Shown piece by piece: positions 7,738-26,378 of a stretch of 35,762 bases of DNA. How positions within the stretch are numbered: position 1 is the first letter of the stretch; each line of letters starts with the position of its first letter. The position numbers and the translations under genes are program-made. The stretch is taken from NCBI GenBank assembly GCA_937146805.1, contig CAKZRR010000051.1, forward strand, positions 1 through 35,762. The letters are read 5' to 3'. Source of the stretch: an uncultured Owenweeksia sp. GTDB lineage: Bacteria; Bacteroidota; Bacteroidia; Flavobacteriales; Schleiferiaceae. The notes beneath the pieces were generated by a model, which had not been told where the DNA came from, searched no databases, and saw nothing but the letters and a program-made list of their open reading frames with translations.

Positions 7738-8976
7738 TTAATCCTCGGATTGTTGTATCTTAATTACTTTTGATAAAGTACTAAGTATCTTTTCATGCTT
7801 AGTTACCATTGGATTGGTTGTATCCCAAACATAACCCGCCAATACCGAACAAATTTGCTTCTTAAATTGTTCTAGTTGATGGCTAGCAAAGAAAATTTGA
7901 GGCAGCTCTCCTGAATACCAAGCTTTGATGTAAGAGCTAAATACAGACACACCTCGTTGGATATACTCTACATAGTCTTTCTCCCAGTTTACTTCAATAT
8001 TGTTTAAAGTACTACTCACCAACTTAGCAGCTTGTACGCCAGATTCCATAGCCAATGTTACTCCCGAAGAAAAAATTGGATCAATAAATTCTGTGCTGTT
8101 TCCTGTAAGCACATAGCCCCTACCATAAAACTGCTTTACGCCAATGGCATAACCCTTAATCTCGTTAACGGGGCTTACAAACCTGTAGTTACCAACTTTA
8201 GTACGTAAGGTTTTATTTTCATCAATCTGCGACCTCAGTTTCTCTTCCGCATCTCCAGGTAAGTCTGCCAAATCATTGATCGCTCCAACTACTCCTATTG
8301 ACAATTTACTTTTAGAAAGAGGAATTAACCAACACCAAGAATCATTTGACAAACAAAACACCTCAATACTATCCTTTCTATACTCTCCATCAAACACCTC
8401 AGCGTGGGCAAAAACGGCCGCCCTAGGCGGATGGATTGATGGTTTATCTAAATTAAGCATTCGAGGCAAAACGCGGCCAAAGCCACTGGCATCAATCACA
8501 TACTTACTTTTAACACTTAACTGTTTACCTTCATTGTTTTCATACTGTACAATTTGATGCCCTTCTAAAAAATCAACATTTTTCACCGTACATCTATACT
8601 GTACTTGTGCTCCTTTTTTAGCCACCTCATCTGCCAATACTTTATCAAACTTTGATCGCTCTACCTGCCACGCAAAATCTGCTCCTTCACTATATCTTTC
8701 CGAAAAATCAAAATGACATTCTTCGTTATCACTGGCAAAAACAGCTCCATTTTTAATTTGAAAATTTGACTTATTAACGGCAGATAACAAATCTGTTTCG
8801 GCCAACAGATCTTGGCACCTAGGCAATAAGCTCTCACCTATTACAAACCTTGGGAAGCTACTTCTTTCTAAAATAGTTACATCATGCCCTAGTCGTAGTA
8901 ATTTAGCAGCGGCCAAAGTACCAGCAGGGCCAGCACCTATTATTAAAACCTCACACTCTTCTTGGTAATTAGGCAT
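7738..8976 (-). CDS. FAD-dependent oxidoreductase, flavin-dependent halogenase-like
   Basis: A 412-residue flavoprotein. It has the FAD-binding GAGPAG at residues 14-19, GESLLP at 47-52 and DASG at 162-165. It also has WCWLIP at 214-219, which fits the WxWxIP signature of flavin-dependent halogenases, and a lysine (K75, QIKNGA) near where halogenases carry the catalytic lysine. These point to the halogenase / geranylgeranyl-reductase branch of FAD monooxygenase-fold enzymes. Some flexirubin pigments are chlorinated on the ring, so halogenation of the p-coumaroyl starter or ring is a reasonable guess, but a hydroxylase or reductase is also possible. It overlaps the upstream CrtISO-like gene by 8 bases and is the last gene of the minus-strand unit. 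Confidence 0.75.
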   Translation of the reverse strand: MPNYQEECEVLIIGAGPAGTLAAAKLLRLGHDVTILERSSFPRFVIGESLLPRCQDLLAETDLLSAVNKSNFQIKNGAVFASDNEECHFDFSERYSEGADFAWQVERSKFDKVLADEVAKKGAQVQYRCTVKNVDFLEGHQIVQYENNEGKQLSVKSKYVIDASGFGRVLPRMLNLDKPSIHPPRAAVFAHAEVFDGEYRKDSIEVFCLSNDSWCWLIPLSKSKLSIGVVGAINDLADLPGDAEEKLRSQIDENKTLRTKVGNYRFVSPVNEIKGYAIGVKQFYGRGYVLTGNSTEFIDPIFSSGVTLAMESGVQAAKLVSSTLNNIEVNWEKDYVEYIQRGVSVFSSYIKAWYSGELPQIFFASHQLEQFKKQICSVLAGYVWDTTNPMVTKHEKILSTLSKVIKIQQSED

Positions 8977-10495: not shown

Positions 10496-13400
10496 TTATT
10501 TTTGTTCTAATAAATAGGTTTGATTACTACTTGCCCTATTGCTATCTAATCTCTTTAGTTTCCAATTATTTTCATTTGCAATCTGCTGCAATTTATCCAA
10601 ACTTAAAAAAGTAAGCTGATGTTCACTTTTATTAAATTTCAACATTTTGGTTGACCATCTTTCGGTTCTTTCGGTTACATGATGTTGATTCGTATTGATA
10701 AATCCATCTCGCAGAAGTATTCTTCCGCTTGGCAAGGCCATTTTCATGCAATGATGCAATACCTCCTCTTGGCGTTTTGATGGCAAATAGTGCAGCGTAT
10801 CTTTAATAATATAGGTACTTGCTGCTTTTGGTAATGATACGTTTAAGTCCTCCTGTGCAAACAAAGTGTTGTCACCTTTAAGGTAATTATTTTGAGCAAC
10901 TTGTATTTTCTTAAGGTCATAATCCCACGCTACAAGCTGCCTTTGTGAACCTGTTAAGTGCAACATTAAGGTAAGGTAACCGTAGCCACAACCTAAGTCA
11001 TAAATAAGACCTCCTTTAGGGCAATGTTCATGAAAAGTTTCAAAGTTATTTTCTAACCTAAGCTTAATTTTCAAGTACCACTCCAATACAGGACCTTTAT
11101 AAATGTAACTAGCTATTAATCTCTTTTTAAAGTAAGCGGCACACTCCTTTTTATCTCTAAGCTCGTTAAAGTTTGCCTTAAAATACTTAGAAATCAACTT
11201 TGTTCTTTCCGAATAGTTTGTACCAAACTCCTCATCTGTAGCTTTTACTCTATCCAATATTTTAATGGTGGTATGGCCACTCTGTAAGGTATAATCGTTT
11301 TTCTTAATGGTATCATTAAAACCGTGCAGAATTACAGGTAAAATGTTCAATTTCAGCTTTTCGGCTGCTAAAAAAGCACCCTTATGAAATCGAGCAATTT
11401 TGCCACTTACCGACCTAGTACCCTCAGGAAAAATAGCCACGCTAAAACCATCGGCTACCGCCTCTTGCATTAACACCATGTTTTCTTCTACATTTTTTAC
11501 CGAGGTAGGAAACCCAGCATAGCGCACTAACCAACCAAATAAAGGTGAGTTCCAAACCCACTCATTGGTTAAAATAATAATTTTGGGGTGCAACATTAAC
11601 AAAGCCAATATATCTACAAACGATTGGTGATTGGCTATAATAACAGCGGGTTCTTTAAAGGTTTCCTTATTGGGGTTTACTATTTGTTTGCGCACGTTGG
11701 GCATCAAGTATACCACTGTTTTTGCAAACCTACTCAGTATCCAAACTATAAGAGGCCTTTTAGACCTGCGTGGGGCGGGGAAAAGCCAAAACAAGGGCAA
11801 TAAAGTGGTAAGTATAATAGACCCTAGAGCGAAATAACCAAAAGCAATAGTGCTTGCTACAAGCACATACAAACTTAGTGGGGCTATTTTTTTATGAGCA
11901 CGCTTTGTTACCGCGAAATGAAACATTATTGGCTGCAACAAAATGGATACCAAGGCTATACATACCATACCAATTACAGACAAAAGTGCTATAGATTGCA
12001 AAGCTGGGTGCTTGGCAAAAATTAGAACACCTGTACCTATAACCGTGGTAGTAACAGAAAGAATAATAGCACTTTGGTAGGATCTAATTTTATTTTTACC
12101 CCACTTATATTTACTCAAAAGGCCATCAGACATAAAAATGCAAAAATCATCTCCAAGACCAAACACAAAGGTGGTTACCATTACGTTTACAAAGTTGAAT
12201 TTAATATCAAAAATGGAGCAAATGCCTAGTATCCATATCCAACTAATCACCATTGGTAAAAAGGTGAGTAAAGCCAACTCTATTCTACCATAATTAATAA
12301 GCAACACCAAAAAAACCAAACCCGAACTAAGCGCCAATAAAAGATTAAAATTATCACTCACTACTTCCATTAAGCTATTTGCCATCAAGCTTTTATCCAC
12401 TAAAAGCACCGGCAGGTCGGCCAATAGTTCTTGCACAGCAAAAACACTATCTGCTGGTAAATTCACAATGGATATAAGCTCGAAACCTTGGCTTGATTGA
12501 CTAATAAAGTTTTTAAATGAGCCCGTAAAAAGCAACATACTATCAGGTGCTTCATAGGCCTTAGGCTCATTTTCGAGTAAATTGACAAAGGAGGAAAAAC
12601 TCCCATTTTTAAAACCAAAACTTTCACCTTCTTTATCAAAAAGGTGACTCCAATTTAAGTGTTTTTCTTGAGCTCTTTGTTTCCAATAAGCGGCTCTAGT
12701 CGCTGCTTCATCTTTGGTAACAAAGATATTTGACAAAGAGACAAAGTCATTTATCTGATCTTTTTGCACATACCTACTTAACCGGAAACTTAGAGCATTT
12801 ACATTTTTTAAAGCTTCATTAAACGTATTACCCTTACTTACTAAATACACCGTTTTATTTTGCCCATCCGAAGCGGTAATCACCTTTTCAGCCTTTGTCA
12901 AAAATTCATCTTCGTAGTTTATTTTTCGCAGGTCATTTTCAAATTGTACCGAGGGTGCAAAAAAGGCCATTACTATGGTGATGGAAGCCAAGGTAAACAC
13001 AATTCTTTTTTTTGATAAAACAGCTGGTAAGGCTCTAGGATTGTTATTATCTAACTCATTAGTTTTAAAAGTAACTTTAAAAATAGTGAGAAGCGGAGGT
13101 AAGCCAAACAGTACAAATAATAGAGCACCTATTAGAGATAAGGCAGCAAACAGCCCAAAATCTGTAAGTACTTCAGATTTTAAAAACAGTAAACTTAAAA
13201 AAGCTAAAACCGTGGTTAAGCAGCTAATGGCCAAAGCATGACTTATTCCTTCTTTTGTTTTTGAAACGGATTTACTGTGCTTAAAGTGTGTAAAAAAATG
13301 AAAGGCATAATCCAGCATAATACCCATTACAATGGAACCCGCACCAATGGATAAAATAGAAATATCTCCCTTTAAAAGGTAAATTATTCCAAGCGAAAAA

Positions 13401-14293
13401 GAAAAGCCAAACACCGATGGAAGCACAAACCATATGGGCATAGACCATTTTTTATAATACCATAAGAGGAGTACTAAAATGCCCAAGCCCGCCAATGAGA
13501 GGGTAAGCCGCGTATCACTTTTAATAACCTCTCCATTTTTATGAGCCATCAAGGCTCCTCCAAACACATGTACTCGCAGTCCGCTATGCTTATCTCCAAA
13601 ATGGCTTATTGTCTTTTCTATTTCTTGAACCAACTGAGCACTCTTCTCTGTGTCAGCCGTTGAAAACGCTAAATCTAAAAACAAAATTCCGTGGGAGTTA
13701 TCTTTGGTATAAAGACGATTTTCCTCCCAATTAAATTCGGCTGCTTCGCTCAAAGCTCCAATTGGCTTTAAAACTTGCCCCATTAATCCAGCCGGGTCTC
13801 GTAATATCCAGTCTTTTAAAGCATAGCCTTCAGGTGATTGCAAGCTACGTATCCCTCGCTCTATAGCTTGATTTACGTACGTAGAGTCTAATTGATCAAA
13901 AAACTTTTTTTGCTGATCAACTGGCAAATAGTGTGGTAAATAATCGTAAAAATATTGAAAGGAATTAAGTTGTTGGTCTGCGCTAAATTGCCAAACCACC
14001 TCTTTAACTAAGCTATCGGTAATCCCCTCCAATAAAACACCTAGCTCTTTAATACCACTTTTCACCGAATCGGATGGATACTCATTAGAATTACCTACAG
14101 CAAAAACAATCTTACTGGCGAGAGGTGATTTTTTGAAAAAATTTTGGTATTCCGCTAGTTTAGCGTCCTTAGGAAAGGCCTTGTTTACATCTTGATCTAT
14201 TTTTAACTGCGTTGCGAAAAACAAAAAAAATACCCACAACCCTAGCATAACACCCAAAAGCAACTTTGGGCTTTTTATAAAAAAATCACGCAA
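10496..14293 (-). CDS. MMPL transporter fused to PlsC acyltransferase and methyltransferase
   Basis: A 1265-residue three-part protein. Residues 1-800 form an MMPL/RND-like exporter: a first membrane helix at about 10-30, a periplasmic loop, helices at about 262-405, a helix at about 430-448, a second loop and helices at about 650-795. After a further hydrophobic linker (about 803-840), residues 870-1040 are a PlsC-type acyltransferase with NHQSFVD (the HX4D motif, H889 to D894) and FPEGTR at 955-960. Residues 1095-1265 are a class I methyltransferase with DLGCGYGY at 1099-1106. Proteobacterial aryl polyene clusters encode these three activities too, as separate proteins. The fusion suggests that acylation, methylation and export of the polyene lipid occur at one inner-membrane complex. 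It is the first gene of the divergent unit. Confidence 0.9.
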   Translation of the reverse strand: MRDFFIKSPKLLLGVMLGLWVFFLFFATQLKIDQDVNKAFPKDAKLAEYQNFFKKSPLASKIVFAVGNSNEYPSDSVKSGIKELGVLLEGITDSLVKEVVWQFSADQQLNSFQYFYDYLPHYLPVDQQKKFFDQLDSTYVNQAIERGIRSLQSPEGYALKDWILRDPAGLMGQVLKPIGALSEAAEFNWEENRLYTKDNSHGILFLDLAFSTADTEKSAQLVQEIEKTISHFGDKHSGLRVHVFGGALMAHKNGEVIKSDTRLTLSLAGLGILVLLLWYYKKWSMPIWFVLPSVFGFSFSLGIIYLLKGDISILSIGAGSIVMGIMLDYAFHFFTHFKHSKSVSKTKEGISHALAISCLTTVLAFLSLLFLKSEVLTDFGLFAALSLIGALLFVLFGLPPLLTIFKVTFKTNELDNNNPRALPAVLSKKRIVFTLASITIVMAFFAPSVQFENDLRKINYEDEFLTKAEKVITASDGQNKTVYLVSKGNTFNEALKNVNALSFRLSRYVQKDQINDFVSLSNIFVTKDEAATRAAYWKQRAQEKHLNWSHLFDKEGESFGFKNGSFSSFVNLLENEPKAYEAPDSMLLFTGSFKNFISQSSQGFELISIVNLPADSVFAVQELLADLPVLLVDKSLMANSLMEVVSDNFNLLLALSSGLVFLVLLINYGRIELALLTFLPMVISWIWILGICSIFDIKFNFVNVMVTTFVFGLGDDFCIFMSDGLLSKYKWGKNKIRSYQSAIILSVTTTVIGTGVLIFAKHPALQSIALLSVIGMVCIALVSILLQPIMFHFAVTKRAHKKIAPLSLYVLVASTIAFGYFALGSIILTTLLPLFWLFPAPRRSKRPLIVWILSRFAKTVVYLMPNVRKQIVNPNKETFKEPAVIIANHQSFVDILALLMLHPKIIILTNEWVWNSPLFGWLVRYAGFPTSVKNVEENMVLMQEAVADGFSVAIFPEGTRSVSGKIARFHKGAFLAAEKLKLNILPVILHGFNDTIKKNDYTLQSGHTTIKILDRVKATDEEFGTNYSERTKLISKYFKANFNELRDKKECAAYFKKRLIASYIYKGPVLEWYLKIKLRLENNFETFHEHCPKGGLIYDLGCGYGYLTLMLHLTGSQRQLVAWDYDLKKIQVAQNNYLKGDNTLFAQEDLNVSLPKAASTYIIKDTLHYLPSKRQEEVLHHCMKMALPSGRILLRDGFINTNQHHVTERTERWSTKMLKFNKSEHQLTFLSLDKLQQIANENNWKLKRLDSNRASSNQTYLLEQK

Positions 14294-14529: not shown

Positions 14530-16035
14530 ATGTTGTTAAGCGACTTCGATTCCTACATCAAAGGAACCAAGACTTTTAAAATCAATGATCAAAGCCTAGA
14601 AAGTGTTAGAGCTTCTCATAAATTTTTAGAGAATTTTGCAAAAGACAAAATTATTTATGGGATTAACACTGGTTTTGGGCCAATGGCACAATACAAAATT
14701 GCCGAAACCGACCAGGTTCAATTGCAATACAATCTTATTCGAAGCCATGCTAGCGGACAAGGCGCACCGCTAAACCCTAGCTATACCAAAGCCGTAATGC
14801 TATGCAGAGTTAACACCTTGTGCTTAGGGTTTTCAGGTGTAAGTATAGATGTGGTAAAACAACTTGAAACCTATATTCAAAATGAAATTTACCCCATAAT
14901 ACCTACGCATGGAGGCGTTGGTGCAAGTGGTGACTTGGTACAGTTAGCGCACTTAGCATTAGGATTAATTGGAGAAGGCACATGCTGGTATAAAGGTAAG
15001 ATTGAACCCGTAGAAGAAGTATTAAAAGAATTGGAAATAGCTCCATTAGAGCTAAAACTAAGAGATGGCTTGGCATTGATAAACGGCACTTCATGCATGA
15101 GTGGTATTGGCATGATAAACCTTATAGATGCGCAAAAGCTACTTGAGTGGTCCACTAAACTCGGGGCTATTATTAACGAGCTGGTAGAGTCTTATGATGA
15201 TTCATTTTCTGAGCCCTTAAACGCCAGCAAAAAACACCCTGGCCAACAAACTGTTGCTCGCAATATGCGCAAAGCCCTAAAGGATAGCCTTCGAATTAAA
15301 AAAAGAGAAGAACATCTTTTTAAAAATTCAGAAAACGAATCCTCTATCCCAAATAGAGAAAAGGTACAGGAGTATTATTCGTTTAGATGTATTCCCCAAA
15401 TTTTGGGTCCTATATTAGATGAATGGACGGAGACCAAAACAATTTTAGAAAATGAGATAAACTCAGCCAACGACAACCCCATTATTGATGTTGAAAAGCA
15501 AAATGTTTATCACGGAGGAAATTTTCATGGAGACTATGTGAGTTATGCCATGGATAAGCTAAAAATTGGTATTACCAAACTAGGAATGCTTAGCGAACGT
15601 CAGCTAAACTATTTACTCAACGACAAGCTAAACGACCGCTTTCCTCCTTTCCTAAATATGGGCAAACTTGGGTTTAACTTTGGTATTCAAGGCATACAGT
15701 TTACCGCTACCAGTACAGCAGCCGAAAATCAATCCCTCTCTTTTCCAATGTCTGTGCATTCTATTTCGAATAACAACGATAATCAAGACATTGTAAGCAT
15801 GGGTACTAATGCTGCCTCCATTTTTAAAAATGTTTTAGACAACACTTTTGAGGTAATAGCCATTGAAAGTATTGCGGTAGCACAAGCTATAGATTGTCTG
15901 CCTTCGCAAGAAGGTTTAAGCACAACGGCCAAAGAGTTTTATAAAGAAATACGAACCTTGGTAAAACCTATTTTAGACGACAGACCCTTATCCTCAGAAA
16001 TATCAGGATTAAAAAATCACATTAAACTCAACTAG
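14530..16035 (+). CDS. Tyrosine ammonia-lyase (MIO-dependent aromatic amino acid lyase)
   Basis: Removes ammonia from tyrosine to give p-coumarate, the starter unit of flexirubin-type aryl polyenes. The 501-residue protein has the MIO-forming Ala-Ser-Gly at 132-134 inside GGVGASGDLVQ, the catalytic tyrosine in YGINTGFGPM (Y43), SANDNPI and YHGGNFHG. It closely resembles the characterised F. johnsoniae tyrosine ammonia-lyase as I remember it, including NLIRSH (S72-H73 at the selectivity position) and NNNDNQDIVSMGTN near the C terminus. Histidine as substrate is less likely given that resemblance, and there are no histidine-degradation genes nearby. First gene of the 17-gene plus-strand operon; the next start is 2 bases after its stop. 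Confidence 0.92.
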   Translation: MLLSDFDSYIKGTKTFKINDQSLESVRASHKFLENFAKDKIIYGINTGFGPMAQYKIAETDQVQLQYNLIRSHASGQGAPLNPSYTKAVMLCRVNTLCLGFSGVSIDVVKQLETYIQNEIYPIIPTHGGVGASGDLVQLAHLALGLIGEGTCWYKGKIEPVEEVLKELEIAPLELKLRDGLALINGTSCMSGIGMINLIDAQKLLEWSTKLGAIINELVESYDDSFSEPLNASKKHPGQQTVARNMRKALKDSLRIKKREEHLFKNSENESSIPNREKVQEYYSFRCIPQILGPILDEWTETKTILENEINSANDNPIIDVEKQNVYHGGNFHGDYVSYAMDKLKIGITKLGMLSERQLNYLLNDKLNDRFPPFLNMGKLGFNFGIQGIQFTATSTAAENQSLSFPMSVHSISNNNDNQDIVSMGTNAASIFKNVLDNTFEVIAIESIAVAQAIDCLPSQEGLSTTAKEFYKEIRTLVKPILDDRPLSSEISGLKNHIKLN

Positions 16036-16037
16036 CT

Positions 16038-16778
16038 ATGTCAATTCAATCTTGCGCACTTGTTACCGGAGGATCACGCGGTATAGGACGAGAAATTTGC
16101 CTCAAACTAGCCACAGACTTAGGCTACCATGTACTGATTAATTATGCCTCAAATAGAGATGCCGCAGCAAGCTGCTTAGCCGAGATTAAAAGCAAAGGCG
16201 GAACTGGAGACTTGTTACCCTTTAACGTAGCCAGCTTTGACGAGGCCGAAAATGCCCTAGAAGAGTGGCAAAAGAATAACACCGATAGCAAAATTGAAGT
16301 ACTGGTAAACAATGCAGGCGTTACCAAAGACGGTTTGTTTGTTTTTATGGAAAATAACGACTGGAACACCGTACTTAATACCAGCCTTGGTGGTTTTTAC
16401 AACCTGAGCAGGTTATTGATAACAAAAATGGTTCGCCAGCGCTATGGCCGTATCATCAATTTGGTTTCGTTATCTGGATTAAAAGGCACACCCGGCCAAG
16501 TAAATTATTCGGCCGCAAAAGCAGGCGTAATTGGTGCAACCAAGGCGCTTGCCCAAGAGGTAGCAAAGCGAAACATTACGGTTAATGCTGTAGCACCCGG
16601 TTTTATTAGTACAGATATGACCAAAGATCTAGACGAGAAGGAACTTAAAAAATTGGTACCAATGAACCGATTTGGAAACCCGGAAGAAGTAGCTGACTTG
16701 GTAAGTTTTTTAGCCTCTAAAAAAGCAAGCTACATTACGGGCGAGGTAATTAATATTAACGGTGGAATTTACTCCTAA
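16038..16778 (+). CDS. 3-oxoacyl-ACP reductase (FabG-like SDR)
   Basis: A 246-residue classical short-chain dehydrogenase/reductase with TGGSRGIG at 10-17 (NADP(H) binding), NNAG at 91-94, and the catalytic Ser144, Tyr157 and Lys161 (YSAAK). The N-terminal and C-terminal features (GGIYS end, ITGEVININGG) fit FabG. In this operon it would reduce the beta-keto group after each extension of the polyene chain, as ApeQ does in the E. coli aryl polyene system. It is not the only place for fabG in such genomes, so this is a dedicated paralogue. The next ketosynthase ATG is 4 bases past its stop. Confidence 0.9.
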   Translation: MSIQSCALVTGGSRGIGREICLKLATDLGYHVLINYASNRDAAASCLAEIKSKGGTGDLLPFNVASFDEAENALEEWQKNNTDSKIEVLVNNAGVTKDGLFVFMENNDWNTVLNTSLGGFYNLSRLLITKMVRQRYGRIINLVSLSGLKGTPGQVNYSAAKAGVIGATKALAQEVAKRNITVNAVAPGFISTDMTKDLDEKELKKLVPMNRFGNPEEVADLVSFLASKKASYITGEVININGGIYS

Positions 16779-19133: not shown

Positions 19134-19568
19134 ATGGCACTCATTAACAAACAAGAAATAGAACAGTATATACCGCAAAAGCAACCTATTGTAATGGTTA
19201 ATGAACTGTTGAAAAACACAGAAACTACTACGGTATCTAGCTTTACTGTGGAGACCTCTAATATATTTTGTGAGGGTGGCGAATTACAGGCACCTGGATT
19301 AATTGAGAATATTGCGCAAACAGCCGCTCTTAGAATGGGTTACCTAGCCAGCCAAAACGAATCTCAAAAGGAGCCACCAGTAGGGTTTATTGGTGCAATC
19401 TCAAAACTCTCTATTAAAACAACACCTAAGGTTGGTACCCTACTAACCACTACCGTAAGCATATTAAACGAAATTTTTGGCGTAACTCTAATTAAGGGTG
19501 AAGTATTTTGTGAGGGACAAGAAGTGGCTCAATGCGAAATGAAAATTGTAATCAGTTCGGCCGAATGA
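19134..19568 (+). CDS. Hotdog-fold 3-hydroxyacyl-ACP dehydratase, ApeP/COG4706-like
   Basis: A 144-residue hotdog protein starting at ATG 19134 (MALINKQEIEQYIP), 4 bases after the previous stop; an upstream in-frame ATG inside the acyltransferase gene is rejected. The helix APGLIENIAQTAA carries Glu58 where FabZ has its catalytic Glu. The usual HFPG loop with the catalytic His is absent, replaced by FCEGGELQAPG, and the PH of related N termini is PQ here. This matches the ApeP-type dehydratase family of aryl polyene clusters. It probably works together with the second hotdog dehydratase at 26019-26378 (see findings). Confidence 0.8.
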   Translation: MALINKQEIEQYIPQKQPIVMVNELLKNTETTTVSSFTVETSNIFCEGGELQAPGLIENIAQTAALRMGYLASQNESQKEPPVGFIGAISKLSIKTTPKVGTLLTTTVSILNEIFGVTLIKGEVFCEGQEVAQCEMKIVISSAE

Positions 19569-19984
19569 AAGATTTAAAGGCCTTTACTGAGTTTAAAGTT
19601 CGCTTTAGCGAAGTGGATAGCATGCGTGTAGTTTGGCATGGCAACTACCTAAAGTATTTTGAAGATGGCAGAGAAGCTTTTGGCTTACAGCACGATTTAG
19701 ATTATTTAAAATTATACGATTTAGGGTTTTTAACACCTATTGTACATACCGAACTCGACTTTAAGTGGCCACTTAGATATGGAGACACAGGAGTTATCGA
19801 AACTCGTTTAGAATCTTGCCTTGCTGCCAAAATCATTCATCATTATCGCATTTATAATGCACATACCGAAAAAACTTTAGTAACAGGTAAAACCATTCAG
19901 GTGTTCACCGATATTAAGGGGCAGTTGATACTTAATAACCCCGATTTTTATCAAAATTGGAAAAAGTTAAAAGGACTTAGCTAA
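19565..19984 (+). CDS. 4HBT-family acyl-CoA/ACP thioesterase
   Basis: A 139-residue hotdog thioesterase. The segment SEVDSMRVVWHGNYLKYFED holds the 4-hydroxybenzoyl-CoA thioesterase pattern, with Asp18 as likely catalytic residue, followed by the HGNYLKYFEDGREAF helix. ATG 19565 overlaps the stop of the dehydratase gene in an ATGA arrangement, which suggests translational coupling. In aryl polyene clusters such enzymes are thought to release stalled or finished chains from ACP; which of these applies here is unknown. Its stop is directly followed by the ATG of the next ketosynthase. Confidence 0.85.
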   Translation: MKDLKAFTEFKVRFSEVDSMRVVWHGNYLKYFEDGREAFGLQHDLDYLKLYDLGFLTPIVHTELDFKWPLRYGDTGVIETRLESCLAAKIIHHYRIYNAHTEKTLVTGKTIQVFTDIKGQLILNNPDFYQNWKKLKGLS

Positions 19985-21097
19985 ATGGATGTATTTGCCG
20001 GAGCCACTGCAGCTATTTGCCCTTTGGGAGATAATTTAGAAGTGATTTTTGAACAAATGTGTTTTGGTAAATCTGGAATTAAGACAAGTGAAAATTGTTT
20101 CGATTTACCGGGAGATCATTCGCTCGCTATAATGCCTCCGGGTTATGAGTCGCCAATGAGCAAACTAAAAACGATGCTTTGCAGAAGCATTGACGACAGC
20201 CTTCTTAAACTCACCCAACCCAAGTTACTCACCGACTCAAATACACAAGTGGTTATTTGCAGCACCAAAGGAGAAATTAATAAGCTTAGCACCAAAAACA
20301 GCAACGAGGCCGGCTTATATACTTTGGGTAATTTTGTAAAAAATCATTACAAACTAGCACATACGCCACTCATTATTTCAAATGCTTGTGTAAGCGGTAT
20401 TTCTGGAATAATTAATGGCGCTAGATCACTAAAAAGTAAACAAGCACAAAACGTATTGGTGATAGGAGCTGATTTAGTAAGCAAATTTACTTTAAGTGGC
20501 TTTCTTTCTTTTTTTGCCACCGATGAACAAGTTTGTCGACCATACGATTCAGATAGAAAGGGTATAAACTTAGGTGAAGCTGCAGCTTGTATTTGGATGA
20601 GCTCAAATGCAGGTATTTTTAAAAAAGCAACGGCTAAGTATCTGGGAGGTGCATGCGTAAATGATGCAAACCACATCTCTGGCCCATCACGCACCGGTGA
20701 AGGCTTATACCGAGCCACAAAACTGACCCTACAAGAAGCCAACTTACAACCCCAAAGCATAGATTATATTAATGCCCATGGCACGGCAACCCAGTACAAT
20801 GATGAAATGGAGGCTATTGCATTTAACCGATTACAGCTCCAGAACACACCACTAAACAGTTTTAAAGCATATCTTGGACACACCTTAGGAGCCGCTGGTC
20901 TAATTGAATCTGCCATAGCCTTAAAGTGCATGGAAAACAACACTTTACTTACCAGCCTAGGTTTTAAAAAACAAGGCACAAGTCAATCTTTAGAGGTTAT
21001 CACCCAAACACGTTCACGAGATATTCAAACCATACTTAAAACAGGATCGGGATTTGGAGGAACCAATGCTGCTGTAATTTTTAGTAAAAATGGATAG
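19985..21097 (+). CDS. Beta-ketoacyl synthase, ketosynthase 2 (short form)
   Basis: A 370-residue condensing enzyme, about 40 residues shorter than FabF, with the shortening mostly in the N-terminal half. The active site is complete: Cys135 in SNACVSG, His265 in NAHGTAT and His299 in YLGHTLG. The C terminus is the usual GSGFGGTNAA. The ATG directly abuts the thioesterase stop (TAAATG). It overlaps by 8 bases the next gene, a ketosynthase-like protein without the cysteine, so the two may form a heterodimer. Confidence 0.85.
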   Translation: MDVFAGATAAICPLGDNLEVIFEQMCFGKSGIKTSENCFDLPGDHSLAIMPPGYESPMSKLKTMLCRSIDDSLLKLTQPKLLTDSNTQVVICSTKGEINKLSTKNSNEAGLYTLGNFVKNHYKLAHTPLIISNACVSGISGIINGARSLKSKQAQNVLVIGADLVSKFTLSGFLSFFATDEQVCRPYDSDRKGINLGEAAACIWMSSNAGIFKKATAKYLGGACVNDANHISGPSRTGEGLYRATKLTLQEANLQPQSIDYINAHGTATQYNDEMEAIAFNRLQLQNTPLNSFKAYLGHTLGAAGLIESAIALKCMENNTLLTSLGFKKQGTSQSLEVITQTRSRDIQTILKTGSGFGGTNAAVIFSKNG

Positions 21098-21683
21098 CTT
21101 ATACCTACAGTCATTTGCCCAAATTGATGCTAAAGGATTTCGCCTTAACGGAAAAACCCTCCTGCCTTATCATTCAACCGATTTCCTAAAAAAAATATAC
21201 CAGCAGCAGAAACTCCAGTACCCAAAGTTTCATAAAATGGATACCTTATGTCAAATGGGCTTACTAGCCAGCGAAATAATTTTAAAGGAAGACAACCTTA
21301 TAGAAAGTATTGAAAGCCATGAAATTGCTTTGCTATTTGCCAATGCTCAATCTAGCTTACAAAGCGACCAAACACATATTTTAAATTTTAGTGAAAATCA
21401 AGCCAGCCCGGCCAATTTTGTATATACACTACCCAATATAGTGCTTGGTGAAATTTGCATCCGCCATAAGCTCTACAGCGAAACTAATTTCTATATTTTT
21501 GAAAACTTCGATATTGAAAAACTACTAAAACAAGCTACAATACTTTTAAGTACTACGCAGCATAAAATGTGCCTCTTAGGTTGGATTGACTCTATTGAGG
21601 AGAAACCAAACTGCCATTTGTTTTTATTAAACAAAACAGGCACCGTGCAAGCCACTAAAAAACATTTACAAGCGCTAATTTAG
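21090..21683 (+). CDS. Ketosynthase-like half protein without catalytic cysteine
   Basis: A 197-residue protein that matches the N-terminal half of beta-ketoacyl synthases of the aryl polyene type (PF13723-like): SPANFVYTLPNIVLGEIC corresponds to the stretch just before the active site. The region that should carry the cysteine reads NFYIFEN, with no Cys, and the C-terminal half with the two histidines is missing. This is a normal, intact short gene of these clusters and not an obvious pseudogene, as it is tightly placed between KS2 and ACP2. Likely a non-catalytic partner or chain-length factor; the assignment rests on pattern and context. Confidence 0.65.
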   Translation: MDSLYLQSFAQIDAKGFRLNGKTLLPYHSTDFLKKIYQQQKLQYPKFHKMDTLCQMGLLASEIILKEDNLIESIESHEIALLFANAQSSLQSDQTHILNFSENQASPANFVYTLPNIVLGEICIRHKLYSETNFYIFENFDIEKLLKQATILLSTTQHKMCLLGWIDSIEEKPNCHLFLLNKTGTVQATKKHLQALI

Positions 21684-21696
21684 AGCTCAACAGACC

Positions 21697-21951
21697 ATGG
21701 AAAATTTAGAAGAAAAACTAAAAACACAAATCATAACACAACTTAATCTTGAAGAAGTTGGAGTAGAAGACTTTGGAAATGACGATCCTATATTTGGAGA
21801 TGGCTTGGGGCTAGATTCAATTGATGCCTTAGAGTTGATTGTATTATTGGAAAAAGAATATGGCTTAAAAGTGGCTAACCCCGAAGAGGGTGGTAAAATT
21901 TTTACCAGCATAAATACGATGGCAAACTATATTAGAGAAAACACCAAGTAA
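21697..21951 (+). CDS. Acyl carrier protein 2
   Basis: An 84-residue acidic ACP with the attachment site GLDSIDALEL; the serine is S41. It is clearly different from ACP1 (GLGLDSID against LDLDSLD), so the two may serve starter and extension, or polyene and fatty acyl chains. Aryl polyene clusters of E. coli also have two ACPs (ApeE and ApeF). It lies 13 bases after the ketosynthase-like half protein and 2 bases before ketosynthase 3. Confidence 0.9.
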   Translation: MENLEEKLKTQIITQLNLEEVGVEDFGNDDPIFGDGLGLDSIDALELIVLLEKEYGLKVANPEEGGKIFTSINTMANYIRENTK

Positions 21952-21953
21952 GG

Positions 21954-23144
21954 ATGGAAATTGCCATTACAGGCATGGGTATTGTTTCGGCTATAGGAAA
22001 CAATGTTGCCGAAAATTTTGCTGCCTTAAAACTGCAAAAAACGGGTATAAAAAAAGCGGTGCATCTAGACAGTCGTCTTAAAAACTCCCATGCCTTTGGC
22101 GAAGTTAGTTTATCCAACAGCAAGCTAAAAGAAGAGCTTGGCATTAGCGGCAATCAAAGCATAAGCCGTTCAAGCCTTTTAGGAATTAAGGCAATAAAAG
22201 AATCCATCGAGGGGTTGCCAAAAATTGAAAATACAGGTTTAATATCAGGAACGACCAATGGAGGAATGGACCTGAGTGAAGCCTTTTTTAAAGAGTGGCA
22301 ACAGCAAAATAATCTTAAAAATATTGAAGCTCTTTTAACGCATGATTGTGGCGATACTACCCTTAAAATGAGTCAGTATTTTGGCAACTTTGATTATATC
22401 AACACCATTAGCACAGCCTGCTCTTCGGCTGCCAACGCTTTTATCCTAGGATCCAACCTGCTAAAAACCAAAAGATTAAATAGAGTAATAGTAGGAGGTG
22501 TTGATCCTTTAACTTTTTTTACCGCCAATGGTTTTAACTCACTTATGATTTTAGATAAGGAATGGTGCAAACCCTTTTCCGAAAACCGAGCAGGGTTAAA
22601 CTTAGGAGAAGCAGCTGCCTTTTTAGTACTTGAAAACCTAGCTGATGCTAAAGCTCATAATCATCCTGTAAAAGCAATGCTTACTGGCTACGCCAACACA
22701 AATGATGCCTATCATCAAACCGCCTCATCTGCCCAAGGTGATGGTGCCTTTTTAGCCATGAAACAAGCCCTTGCCCATGCTAGTTTACATCCAAATAATA
22801 TTGATTACATAAATGCCCATGGCACAGGTACCAAAAACAACGATGCCTCGGAATGGGCTGCATTACAAAGAGTTTTTGGTAAAAAAACACCTCCTTTTAG
22901 CAGCACCAAATCATTTACTGGTCACACACTGGGCGCTGCCGGTGCCGTAGAAGCTGTTTACAGCCTGCTTGCTATTCAACATCAAGTACTGTTTCCCAAC
23001 TTAAATTGCCAAAATTCACTCACCCAAAATGTGGCGTCTCCCATCAGTTCAGTTGCGTCAAGCGCGATAGATCATGTGCTTTCAAACTCCTTTGGATTTG
23101 GAGGAAATTGTACTTCATTAGTTTTTTCTAAACCCCAAATCTAA
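21954..23144 (+). CDS. Beta-ketoacyl-ACP synthase (FabF-like), ketosynthase 3
   Basis: A 396-residue condensing enzyme with Cys156 in STACSSA, His289 in NAHGTGT and His324 in FTGHTLG, and the C-terminal NSFGFGGN. It is the most canonical ketosynthase of the operon. It stands directly before a chain-length-factor-like gene (7 bases apart), the same order as in type II polyketide systems, and would be the counterpart of the E. coli ApeO-ApeC heterodimer. Start ATG 21954 gives the normal MEIAITGMGIVS. Confidence 0.9.
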   Translation: MEIAITGMGIVSAIGNNVAENFAALKLQKTGIKKAVHLDSRLKNSHAFGEVSLSNSKLKEELGISGNQSISRSSLLGIKAIKESIEGLPKIENTGLISGTTNGGMDLSEAFFKEWQQQNNLKNIEALLTHDCGDTTLKMSQYFGNFDYINTISTACSSAANAFILGSNLLKTKRLNRVIVGGVDPLTFFTANGFNSLMILDKEWCKPFSENRAGLNLGEAAAFLVLENLADAKAHNHPVKAMLTGYANTNDAYHQTASSAQGDGAFLAMKQALAHASLHPNNIDYINAHGTGTKNNDASEWAALQRVFGKKTPPFSSTKSFTGHTLGAAGAVEAVYSLLAIQHQVLFPNLNCQNSLTQNVASPISSVASSAIDHVLSNSFGFGGNCTSLVFSKPQI

Positions 23145-23151
23145 ACACACT

Positions 23152-24084
23152 ATGCCACTTTTTTTTGAGGGTTCTTCCAGCATTTCGCATCAATCACCTA
23201 GTGCCAACAAAAAACTTAGTTTACTCAAGCTATCTAATGAACTTAACCCCTTAATAGAACCCCAGTATAGCCAAAAACTTAAGCCAGCAAGCTTAAGGCG
23301 CATGAATAAACCCGTAAAAATGGGCAGTTACTGTGCCGCAAGTTTAACGGAGGAAAATGAACAAACACAAGGTATTATTGTAGGTACTGGCTTGGGATGC
23401 ATTAACGATACCGAACGCTTTCTTAGTGATACCATTGAGCAAAAGGAAGGAACCTTATCACCTACGGCCTTTATGCAATCAACCCACAACTCGCTGGCCG
23501 GCCAAATTGCTCTACAGCAGAAAAACAAAGCTTACAATATGACTTTTGTGCAAGGCGCTATTTCTTTTGAAAAAGCTTTAGAAGATGCACAAATGCAATG
23601 CGAATTACAGCCACCGTCATCCTTACTTGTAGGAGCCGTAGATGAAAACACCATGCAATTAGAAGTTTTACTTGATCATTTATCTTCTAAACTTTCTGTT
23701 AATAAGCCATTTATTGGTGAGGGAGCTAACTTCTTTAAAGTAGGGTCAAAACACCAACCTAGCACCATAGCCGAATTAACTTATTTAGACACTTCTAGTA
23801 AAAACGAATCGGAAAGTGTATTTTTAGACCGTAATCAAATTAACACAGAAAGTTTTGATTGGATACTAAATGGTGGATTTGACTTGAACAGTAACTCCAA
23901 TGTACTTAATTTTAAAGAGTACTGCGGAGAATACTATACGGCCACGGCCTTTGCATGTCACCTAGCATTGCTCGCTTTTCAAAACCTTTTGGCAAATGCC
24001 CCAGCAGCGGTTGGGTCTGTTTTGATTCTAAATAAATTTGGATTTTATAAAAGCGTAATAACCCTGGAAAATGTTAAAATTTAA
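23152..24084 (+). CDS. Chain-length-factor-like ketosynthase homologue (Gln in place of Cys)
   Basis: A 310-residue ketosynthase-fold protein. The conserved N-terminal features are kept (GTGLGC at 79-83, SPTAFMQSTHNSLAGQIA), but the active-site cysteine is replaced by Gln134 (MTFVQGA), the substitution typical of chain-length factors in type II polyketide synthases. The C-terminal half is shortened and has none of the catalytic histidine motifs. It would pair with ketosynthase 3 and set the polyene length. Its end overlaps the deacetylase gene by 14 bases. Confidence 0.75.
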   Translation: MPLFFEGSSSISHQSPSANKKLSLLKLSNELNPLIEPQYSQKLKPASLRRMNKPVKMGSYCAASLTEENEQTQGIIVGTGLGCINDTERFLSDTIEQKEGTLSPTAFMQSTHNSLAGQIALQQKNKAYNMTFVQGAISFEKALEDAQMQCELQPPSSLLVGAVDENTMQLEVLLDHLSSKLSVNKPFIGEGANFFKVGSKHQPSTIAELTYLDTSSKNESESVFLDRNQINTESFDWILNGGFDLNSNSNVLNFKEYCGEYYTATAFACHLALLAFQNLLANAPAAVGSVLILNKFGFYKSVITLENVKI

Positions 24085-24838
24085 ACCCCTTCGCGTTCTT
24101 TTTGTACTTCTTTTTGTGGCAGGCATAGCCTTGTATTATTTTCAAATGGCTGAGATATGGATGCTCATAAGCCTGGTATTCTTGTATCTTATTTTACTGG
24201 CTTGGGGCTCTAGCACTATTAAAAGTCAGTTTTTTACACCTACCATTTCTAAGTTAAAAAACGAAAAGCAAATTGCCATTACCTTTGATGATGGACCACA
24301 CACCAATACACCCGAAATTTTAGAAATATTAGATAAACACAATGCCAAGGCCACCTTTTTTTGCATTGGTAGCCAGGTAGAGGCACATCCAGAAATAGCC
24401 AAACTTATTGTTGAAAAAGGACACACTATAGGCAACCATAGCTACAGCCACTCTACATCATGGGGATGGATGAGTACCAAAAAAATAAAAAAAGAAATTA
24501 GCCAAACACAAGAAAGCATTGCCAAAGTAACAGGCGTTAAACCTCATCTGTTTAGACCTCCTTTTGGCGTAACGAATCCGCAAGTTTCAAGAGCTTTAAA
24601 ACAAAGTGAATTACAAACTGTTGGCTGGAACCTAAGAAGCCTTGACACCAAAATTAAAGAACCCAAAAAGCTTTGGGAACGTGTTAAAAGTAAATTGGAG
24701 GGGCGAGCCATTATACTTTTTCATGATACCATGCCACATAGCAATAAAGTGGTAAATGCTTTGCTCAACACCTGTGCTAAACGTGGCATCGAAATTGTCC
24801 CTATTGATACATTATCTCAAAATAACGTACATGCTTAA
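24071..24838 (+). CDS. Membrane-anchored polysaccharide deacetylase (NodB domain)
   Basis: A 255-residue protein with two N-terminal membrane segments (about 8-24 and 28-46) and a complete NodB domain: TFDDGPH (D73, D74), the zinc histidines in GNHSYSH (H123, H127), RPPFG (R162) and LFHD (H218, D219). All catalytic residues are present, so it should be an active metal-dependent N-deacetylase. Its presence in a pigment operon, with a glycosyltransferase three genes later, suggests that it deacetylates an amino sugar such as a GlcNAc in a glycolipid carrier. It overlaps both its neighbours (14 bases before, 8 after). Confidence 0.88.
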   Translation: MLKFKPLRVLFVLLFVAGIALYYFQMAEIWMLISLVFLYLILLAWGSSTIKSQFFTPTISKLKNEKQIAITFDDGPHTNTPEILEILDKHNAKATFFCIGSQVEAHPEIAKLIVEKGHTIGNHSYSHSTSWGWMSTKKIKKEISQTQESIAKVTGVKPHLFRPPFGVTNPQVSRALKQSELQTVGWNLRSLDTKIKEPKKLWERVKSKLEGRAIILFHDTMPHSNKVVNALLNTCAKRGIEIVPIDTLSQNNVHA

Positions 24839-25457
24839 ATATATTTGGCTGAGTGTTTTCCTTATCCCCCACTTAGGCCTATCCCAAAATTTAACTCCCT
24901 GTAAAAATCCCGCCCAAGCGCTTACAATTTTTCAAGAAATAAACACAAAAAATCAAAGCTTAGCCTGCGACTTTATCCAACATAAGCACTTTAGCTTTAT
25001 GGATAAACCTTTAATTTCGGAAGGGAAGTTTTACTATCAACAACAGGAAAATCTTCGTTGGGAATATCAAACCCCCATTAAATATATTTTAATAGTTAGC
25101 GATGGACTTATTAAAATTAGTGAGGACGGCCAAACAAAAGAGTACTCGGCCAACGCCAACGTTTTGTTTAAAACCATTAAGGAAACCATTATGGGTTGTG
25201 TGAATGGCAGTATTGTTAACGACCCAAAATACACCACTCAATTTTATGAAAATGAAAATGAACTTCAACTTAAGCTAACCCCTAAGGGCAATGATATTAA
25301 AGACTTTATGGCCGAAATAAACATTTATGTAAATAAGCACAAGGGGCATATTAATAAGTTACTGTTGATAGACGGTGCCAAAGACAGCACGGAGATAATT
25401 TTTGAAAACATTGAAATAAATCAACCCATTGAAGCGCTCCTTTTTAAAAAGCTATAA
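24831..25457 (+). CDS. LolA-like outer-membrane lipoprotein carrier
   Basis: A 208-residue periplasmic protein. The start at ATG 24831 overlaps the deacetylase stop and gives a clear signal peptide (MLKYIWLSVFLIPHLGLSQ). The mature part has LolA character: SLACDFIQHKHFSFMDKPLISEGKFYY and ENLRWEYQTP, the strand pattern that binds a lipid tail. LolA moves lipoproteins to the outer membrane; cluster-linked LolA proteins in aryl polyene systems are thought to move the hydrophobic pigment. A housekeeping LolA is expected elsewhere. Next gene overlaps by 29 bases. Confidence 0.82.
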   Translation: MLKYIWLSVFLIPHLGLSQNLTPCKNPAQALTIFQEINTKNQSLACDFIQHKHFSFMDKPLISEGKFYYQQQENLRWEYQTPIKYILIVSDGLIKISEDGQTKEYSANANVLFKTIKETIMGCVNGSIVNDPKYTTQFYENENELQLKLTPKGNDIKDFMAEINIYVNKHKGHINKLLLIDGAKDSTEIIFENIEINQPIEALLFKKL

Positions 25458-26022
25458 ACTCATTTGGGTGGTAGCAGCATGGGCTAGCTTAAGTTTTTGC
25501 GCCCACGCCCAAAACTCCAACATTAACCATCCCTATCTTTTAGAAAAATCTTCATTTTTTAAAACCAGCTTTAATTGGGGTGAACTTTCGGTGGCTGGCA
25601 CCATGGCCGTAAAATTTGTAGATCAAGGTAACTTTAGGGTATCAATAGCGAGTGGTATGGGAGGAACACTTCTTGACCTTGAATGGATAGACGGAAATAT
25701 GGAAATTCATTTTATACCGGAGGTAATGAACAAAAAGATGCTTTTAAAACAGTTAGAGAAAGATCTCTCTTTAACCTTTTTGGCCATACTCCATAATGCG
25801 CACTTTAAGGATGACTATCTATTTAAAAATAACTCAAAAAAGTTTGAGGTGGATCTAGATGAAAAGTATCGTCCTAGCCAAGTATGGCAACTTGGTTTTT
25901 TTAATGGAAAGAAAAAGTCTTTGTCATTTTTCTATAAAAATGAAAAAATTGAAACGGTAAGTATGTCTCATAAAAGGCGAAACGTACATTTGCAACTTAC
26001 TAATTTAAGTCCCTCTACTTGA
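25429..26022 (+). CDS. Secreted LolB-like protein of unknown function (TTG start)
   Basis: A 197-residue protein starting at TTG 25429, inside the end of the LolA gene. No ATG precedes the hydrophobic segment, and this TTG gives a good signal peptide (MKRSFLKSYK, a hydrophobic stretch, CAHAQ at about 28). The mature part is rich in beta strands, including GELSVAGTMAVKF and GGTLLDLEW, like the opening of LolB-type or DUF3261 proteins of aryl polyene clusters. I propose an outer-membrane receptor or periplasmic partner of LolA, but the family is not recognised with certainty. The Cys in SFCAHAQ could be a lipobox variant; the context is not a clean one. Confidence 0.6.
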   Translation: MKRSFLKSYKLIWVVAAWASLSFCAHAQNSNINHPYLLEKSSFFKTSFNWGELSVAGTMAVKFVDQGNFRVSIASGMGGTLLDLEWIDGNMEIHFIPEVMNKKMLLKQLEKDLSLTFLAILHNAHFKDDYLFKNNSKKFEVDLDEKYRPSQVWQLGFFNGKKKSLSFFYKNEKIETVSMSHKRRNVHLQLTNLSPST

Positions 26023-26378
26023 ACGACTTTTACAAATTACAGAAAATCACCAAGCAACATTTAGCTAGTTTTGAGGCTCAAATAACCTTAAACCCAAGAG
26101 CAGATGTTTACCGTGGTCACTTCCCCAATCAGCCCATTGCTCCAGGAGTTTGTTTGGTACAAATGGTAACAGAGATAGTTAGTGCACATCTTGACAAGAA
26201 ACTGGCATTAAAGACCGCGAGGCAAATCAAATTTTTAGCCGTGGTAAATCCCAATGAAGTGCCAGAGTTAACCTTAGAAGTTACTCTATCCGAAAGTGAA
26301 ATTGGTCAAAATTTTAAATGCACTGCGCACTTTGAGAATCAAAAATTTTTCAAAATAAGTGGAGAACTTAGCGAGTAA
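26019..26378 (+). CDS. Hotdog-fold 3-hydroxyacyl-ACP dehydratase, FabZ/ApeI-like
   Basis: A 119-residue hotdog dehydratase beginning with TTG 26019, which overlaps the previous stop (TTGA). The loop YRGHFPNQPIAPG carries the catalytic histidine (H34) as in FabZ, but the residue 14 places later, Glu in FabZ, is Gln48 in VCLVQM; a Glu follows at 52. It should dehydrate the beta-hydroxyacyl chain to the trans double bond of the polyene, probably as a complex with the other hotdog dehydratase at 19134-19568. Its end overlaps the glycosyltransferase gene by 20 bases. Confidence 0.8.
   Translation: MNDFYKLQKITKQHLASFEAQITLNPRADVYRGHFPNQPIAPGVCLVQMVTEIVSAHLDKKLALKTARQIKFLAVVNPNEVPELTLEVTLSESEIGQNFKCTAHFENQKFFKISGELSE

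Follow-up and report, generated by a model that had tools for sequence, protein, structure and literature searches.

How is water removed during polyene synthesis when each of two candidate dehydratases has only half of a catalytic dyad? This question is raised by contig CAKZRR010000051.1 of an uncultured Owenweeksia sp. (Bacteroidota, Flavobacteriales), analysed over a stretch of 35,762 nucleotides (the window). A putative flexirubin cluster on the window encodes two hotdog proteins, FlxF with a catalytic glutamate and FlxS with a catalytic histidine; the names fit by gene order and family rather than by direct comparison with the proteins of Chitinophaga pinensis. In dimers of FabA and FabZ, each active site consists of the His of one chain and the acid of the other. 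FabZ has both dyad residues on every chain and two sites per dimer. Neither window protein has His and Glu on the same chain, as the FabZ homodimer does. Very probably, FlxF and FlxS together form a heterodimeric 3-hydroxyacyl-acyl carrier protein (ACP) dehydratase of the flexirubin aryl-polyene synthase, with a single composite site. We infer the pairing, the shared site and the reaction from the residues, their conservation, the co-occurrence of both genes, the homology to ApeI and ApeP and the predicted folds.

A dyad divided between two proteins

The FlxF-type (ApeP-like) subunit, the putative donor of the catalytic Glu, was recognised by translation, profile matches and an AlphaFold2 model. 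Its gene at 19134..19568 (forward strand, as for all features of the pair) encodes 144 amino acids. Glu58 (codon GAG, 19305..19307) is located in the central helix within APGLIENIAQTAAL, in the ExxxQ motif of LIENIAQTAA. The protein has no GHFP loop, and its 144 amino acids include no histidine. The FlxS-type (ApeI-like) subunit, the putative donor of the catalytic His, was recognised by translation, Pfam and an AlphaFold2 model. Its gene at 26019..26378 encodes 119 amino acids and has a TTG start, which overlaps the upstream stop codon as TTGA. His34 (codon CAC, 26118..26120) is located within YRGHFPNQPIAPGV, in the GHFP of GHFPNQP. Gln48 (26160..26162) occupies the position of the FabZ Glu and the ApeI Asp in the alignment, and Glu52 (26172..26174), a conserved acid by family counts, follows one helical turn later. 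A preliminary description of this DNA had given Glu58 without an HFP histidine to the first protein and His34 with Gln48 at the Glu position to the second. The translations agree with both assignments, and the coordinates and the numbering were right for both proteins.

The placement of the acid positions was examined against FabZ. The genome has a single FabZ with an intact dyad, and Gln48 of FlxS aligns on its Glu. Profile alignments put Glu58 of FlxF, with its ExxxQ motif, on the FabZ Glu, which rules out an alignment slip as the source of the split. In a MAFFT alignment of FlxF with FabZ, the FabZ row had slipped by a few columns in this region, and this alignment was not used for the placement of Glu58. 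Both proteins are far from the FabZ equivalog NF000582, with 33.2 and 30.9 bits for the two proteins and a cut-off of 113. They share with the FabZ/FabA homodimers the fold, the ExxxQ helix motif (FlxF) and the GHFP loop (FlxS), but each has one dyad residue.

Conservation was studied with 122 distinct FlxF relatives, 80 from a scan in which each species was represented by one genome and 42 from profile searches. The search peptides of the scan included IENIAQTA, and all 80 scan relatives carry exactly this peptide. They were left out of the Glu58 count because the search peptide itself dictates this residue. The 42 relatives found by profiles, without a motif filter, all have Glu58 and Gln62. 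Only two of them carry the exact IENIAQTA; the neighbouring residues vary (IEHMAQS, IENTAQT and others). HFP is present in 0 of the 122 relatives. A displaced histidine in FlxF was ruled out: the window protein has none, and at every column over residues 36-57 at most 6 of 124 aligned FlxF sequences have a His.

The FlxS-type set comprises 103 distinct sequences, including the window protein, with E < 1e-20. They were collected through protein or profile matches, a search that itself favours the GHFP stretch. His34 is present in all 103. Position 48 is Gln in 95, Glu in 4, Leu in 2, Gly in 1 and Ala in 1. These counts rule out a split peculiar to this window. Judged by the sequences, the split dyad is a family trait, widely conserved in Bacteroidota. 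All relatives counted retain the half of their own subunit and almost all are without the other half, a pattern that would be expected from selection on one composite site. By these data, the complementary loss of half a dyad is a trait common to many Bacteroidota.

Two other positions differ between the window proteins and their families. FlxF has Ala53 where a glutamate is conserved in 114 of 123 sequences, and FlxS has Ala28 where a histidine is conserved in 97 of 103. The congener G116 has Glu53 but Ser28; the losses at FlxF position 53 and FlxS position 28 are not coupled there.

In the proposed mechanism, FlxF and FlxS, homologous to ApeP and ApeI, would pair as a heterodimer. At each possible site, the loop of one subunit would contribute the His and the central helix of its partner the acid. 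The working site would consist of His34 of FlxS and Glu58 of FlxF. The mirror site would be dead, with a FlxF lacking the His and a FlxS with Gln48. The heterodimer would remove water from each beta-hydroxyacyl-ACP made by the reductase of the cluster and so lead to the conjugated polyene. On this basis FlxF and FlxS should be expressed together, and the annotation of a single gene as FabZ-like dehydratase would mislead. A familiar parallel is the double-hotdog dehydratase domain of modular polyketide synthases, which has one site with the His from one half and the acid from the other. There, both halves are on a single chain, whereas here two genes are 6.5 kb apart.

The two genes occur together. 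Among 196 genomes drawn evenly from the order, FlxF (profile A1, E ≤ 1e-20) was present in 36 and FlxS (single query P0002, E ≤ 1e-10) in 37 genomes, and all 36 FlxF genomes were among the 37. In the genome with FlxS alone (G027), the FlxS contig ends inside the upstream deacetylase gene, short of the place of FlxF. In a sample of 296 genomes of the phylum, the identical 25 genomes have FlxF and FlxS, both at E ≤ 1e-20. The two samples overlap; together, they include 41 genomes with both genes and one with FlxS alone, so that 41 of 41 FlxF-bearing genomes have FlxS. For the scanned FlxF loci, the fetched flanks alone contained FlxS in 16 of 80 cases; where 8.5 kb or more of downstream sequence was present, the count was 15 of 49. 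A search of the whole genomes covered 79 of the 80 genomes behind these loci (all but L065) and detected FlxS at E ≤ 1e-20 in 37/39 and 32/40, that is 69 of 79 FlxF-bearing genomes. Two further genomes (G503 and G525) have a partial FlxS match at a contig edge. A fusion of FlxF and FlxS was looked for through frame lengths only; none of the reported frames was long enough, FabZ-type frames aside.

Relation to ApeI, ApeP and FabZ

A heterodimer of ApeI and ApeP with a single active site is described in the literature, and the title of PDB entry 6QSR is 'The Dehydratase Heterocomplex ApeI:P from Xenorhabdus doucetiae'. This precedent had been named in the preliminary description and is real. For the E. 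coli cluster, the passages available from PMC8253772 report that deletion of most predicted core biosynthesis genes abolishes the pigment. The mutants named in these passages with full or partial pigment are apeA, apeD, apeF, apeJ and apeK; apeI and apeP are not among them.

Reference sequences, eight each of ApeP and ApeI, were obtained from E. coli CFT073, with genes identified by comparing their order with the table in PMC8253772, and from seven clusters in plasmid records. ApeP is a Glu-only subunit like FlxF, with the Glu in ExxxQ in 8/8 and HFP in 0/8. ApeI has the His of the GHF motif in 8/8, like FlxS with its GHFP, and is encoded apart from the Glu subunit within the same cluster. In both systems, the two hotdog proteins have a gene each, and the aryl-polyene cluster also encodes ketosynthases, ACP, reductase and thioesterase. 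A clean split of the dyad as a special feature of this locus, suggested earlier, is not supported: ApeP and ApeI divide the Glu and the His in the same way, so the principle of one site is already published, and Gln48 is the usual residue in the FlxS relatives found.

The two systems differ in the acids of the His subunit and in gene number. ApeI has Asp at the acid position in 8/8, FlxS Gln in 95/103; the Asp is not known to define the published complex. Four residues later, an acid is present in 99/103 FlxS and in 0/8 ApeI. One-site catalysis could be tested more cleanly with the Gln48 form than with ApeI, where the Asp is retained. Unlike the ape clusters, most FlxF carriers of the order (33 of 36 genomes) have two FlxF-type genes side by side. 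Second copies were aligned from 18 of these 33 genomes, and all 18 have the Glu (e.g., IENTAQTCS). An example are the twin genes L131:1441-1914 and L131:1918-2385; L120, L118 and L139 are alike. Only one FlxF copy is present in the genome of the window, its congener G116 and G095. In G134, G172, G177 and G187, the match to one FlxF copy runs through one stop codon. An exchange of subunits round one FlxS is possible in twin-FlxF genomes, and clusters with two FlxF genes would be a natural test of it.

Profile comparisons with small reference sets (8 ApeP, 8 ApeI and 9 FabZ) gave pairwise best matches. FlxF matched ApeP with an E value of 1.1e-17, FabZ with 2.2e-14 and ApeI with 0.23. FlxS matched ApeI with 8.2e-18, FabZ with 3.9e-14 and ApeP with 0.15. 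Because FlxF is nearest to ApeP and FlxS nearest to ApeI by profile, and because the single-site ApeI/ApeP heterodimer is published, the mechanism put forward is probably correct and of a known kind. The heterodimer with one composite His/Glu site, as proposed in the preliminary description, holds as the best reading of the sequences, given the ApeI:ApeP homology and the conserved split. The arrangement is a conserved flexirubin version of the known ApeI:ApeP.

The FlxS profile found 6qsr_A at 7.7e-11, second behind 3esi. The FlxF profile found 6qsr_B at 0.0025 only, beneath eleven FabZ-type sequences. The AlphaFold2 single-chain models had a mean confidence (pLDDT) of 94.9 for FlxF and 94.0 for FlxS. 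The FlxF model matched 6qsr_B, the ApeP chain, with a VIA Z score of 19.9 (root-mean-square deviation 1.9, 139 aligned residues), tied with many FabZ chains (top 20.3). The best VIA match of the FlxS model was 6qsr_A, the ApeI chain (Z 15.6, root-mean-square deviation 2.2, 112 aligned residues), tied with 8ayd (15.3) and 3esi (15.2); FabZ chains reached up to 15.3. In sequence, the FlxF and FlxS models were 16% and 21% identical to the chains of 6QSR.

Among the Pfam families, the FabA-like PF07977 matched FlxS with 28.8 bits (cut-off 23), and FlxF had no match to it at E ≤ 0.1. The ApeI-like PF22818 matched 39 of the 40 members of the FlxS alignment A2 at E ≤ 0.1. FlxS is, on sequence grounds, a relative of this family, not filed as a member. 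The ApeP-like PF22817 matched 10 of the 53 members of the FlxF alignment A1 at E ≤ 0.1, with a best value of 8.1e-6. A search of the whole genome with PF22817 had no match, and no control genome matched either. A function of FlxS as a cispentacin-type decarboxylase was rejected on the NF058663 score (17.1 bits, cut-off 140) and the passages on AmcE available from PMC10698177.

A similar cluster is known from Chitinophaga pinensis. 'A dehydratase (FlxF, FlxS)' was proposed there for the double bonds (PMC3992019, in the part available). The pathway and the pair of functions are the same, and both proteins are named as flexirubin dehydratases; a shared site goes unmentioned in that part of the article. 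The literature search found nothing that joins flexirubin with heterodimer and dehydratase, and the parts of the literature covered contained no biochemistry of the flexirubin dehydration step.

Alternative assemblies and the acid at FlxS position 52

Several results weigh against a composite site of FlxF and FlxS. Any two genes that a cluster needs would be expected to occur together, so that the co-occurrence speaks for a common pathway more than for a contact of the proteins. In the whole-genome search, 8 of the 79 FlxF-bearing genomes had no FlxS (G461, G466, G498, G506, G513, G516, G522 and G527); all eight are metagenome assemblies according to their titles. The profile comparisons are limited by the small reference sets, and the FlxS-ApeI match covers 75 columns against 96 for FabZ. 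The predicted FlxF model is equally close to FabZ and ApeP, and for this protein the fold alone does not separate the two. The window FlxS stays under the curated cut-off of PF22818 (24.9 versus 28.5 bits), and the window FlxF has no match to PF22817 at E ≤ 0.1. Finally, position 52 of FlxS is Glu or Asp in 99/103 sequences, an acid that could serve in a FlxS homodimer.

This acid was studied further. The FlxS central helix (window 26160-26174) has QxxxE or QxxxD in 94/103, in contrast to the ExxxQ of FlxF, ApeP and FabZ. Among the 103 sequences, 98 have an acid at position 52 only, three at 48 only, one at both and one at neither. Three of the four FlxS-type proteins with Glu48 have no acid at position 52, and among the 99 that lack an acid at 48, 98 carry one at 52. 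In a tree built without columns 48 and 52, position 48 changed four times, and the well-supported branches include only one independent pair. This tree gives the inverse pattern of acids at 48 and 52 no statistical backing; the pattern was noticed after looking and is a lead only. Judged by the dimer geometry, an acid at 52 would point to the His-less mirror site in the heterodimer and face His34 in a FlxS homodimer.

It is mainly the conserved acid at position 52 that keeps the FlxS homodimer as a rival. His34 and the shifted Glu52 of QxxxE would then be the dyad, and FlxF would be a separate Glu-only hotdog protein with another role, such as substrate or ACP binding, isomerisation or that of a regulatory partner. 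The near exclusion of acids at 48 and 52 agrees with this, and in related dehydratases the FabZ-type Gln at the position equivalent to 52 is located near the active site. This assembly is nevertheless unlikely. The inverse pattern has no weight on the tree, the invariant Glu58 of FlxF (42/42) would have no clear reason, and ApeI, with Asp48 and no acid at 52 in 8/8, still acts in a heterodimer according to the published work. A complex of FlxF and FlxS might also work with residues other than His34 and Glu58, or with one purely structural subunit. The superfamily has heterodimers of this kind; in the mycobacterial HadAB, one subunit bears the whole dyad. Under the classical mechanism, neither Flx subunit could carry out the catalysis on its own, since each is without the half of the other, and both dyad halves are invariant in the relatives counted, which makes this variant distinctly improbable. 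A pairing of FlxF or FlxS, or both, with the housekeeping FabZ as the source of the missing residue is the least credible of the assemblies and would be very surprising. The genome does have one FabZ with an intact dyad. However, this FabZ is the C-terminal end of an open frame of 476 residues, a length we take to be typical of LpxC-FabZ fusions, and FlxS accompanies FlxF in all 41 FlxF-bearing genomes of the samples.

For the preferred heterodimer of FlxF and FlxS, the moved acid and the twin genes allow a speculative extension. The FlxS acid would have moved by one helical turn (ExxxQ to QxxxE), and twin-FlxF genomes would build two alternative dehydratases round one shared His subunit, for example for early and late chain lengths of the polyene; the mirror site might retain a role outside catalysis. 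This extension is tentative and rather doubtful.

Gene cluster of the window

The gene run starts with flxA, a putative tyrosine ammonia-lyase gene (14530..16035, forward strand). The FlxA equivalog NF053541 matched with 796.4 bits (cut-off 700); by this match, the cluster is marked as a flexirubin cluster. Flexirubins are a chemotaxonomic marker of Bacteroidota according to the available part of PMC3992019. The run continues with a ketoreductase (16038..16778, forward strand; PF00106, 179.7 bits), which by position and family probably makes the beta-hydroxyacyl substrate, and includes ketosynthases, two ACPs recognised by reading the translation, an acyltransferase and a thioesterase. The FlxF-type and FlxS-type genes are both part of this run, with 6.45 kb between them. 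A third hotdog gene (19532..19984, forward strand) codes for a YbgC/FadM-type thioesterase outside the dyad, with 52.7 bits for PF13279 (cut-off 25.5) and 66.7 bits for TIGR00051 (cut-off 68.7).

Two ketosynthases with a Cys motif (19985-21097 and 21954-23144) are each followed by a short ketosynthase-like protein (21090-21683 and 23152-24084). By reading, these short proteins of 197 and 310 amino acids are without the Cys motif. Both sets look like pairs of ketosynthase and chain length factor in their sequences, again with one complete site per heterodimer.

On the reverse strand, a single frame of 1265 amino acids (10496-14293) combines an MMPL-type transporter, an acyltransferase and a methyltransferase. 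These are separate genes in the E. coli aryl-polyene cluster. A flavin adenine dinucleotide (FAD) enzyme adjoins the cluster on the same strand (7738-8976). It has a tryptophan-halogenase match of 90 bits (cut-off 21) and may modify the pigment.

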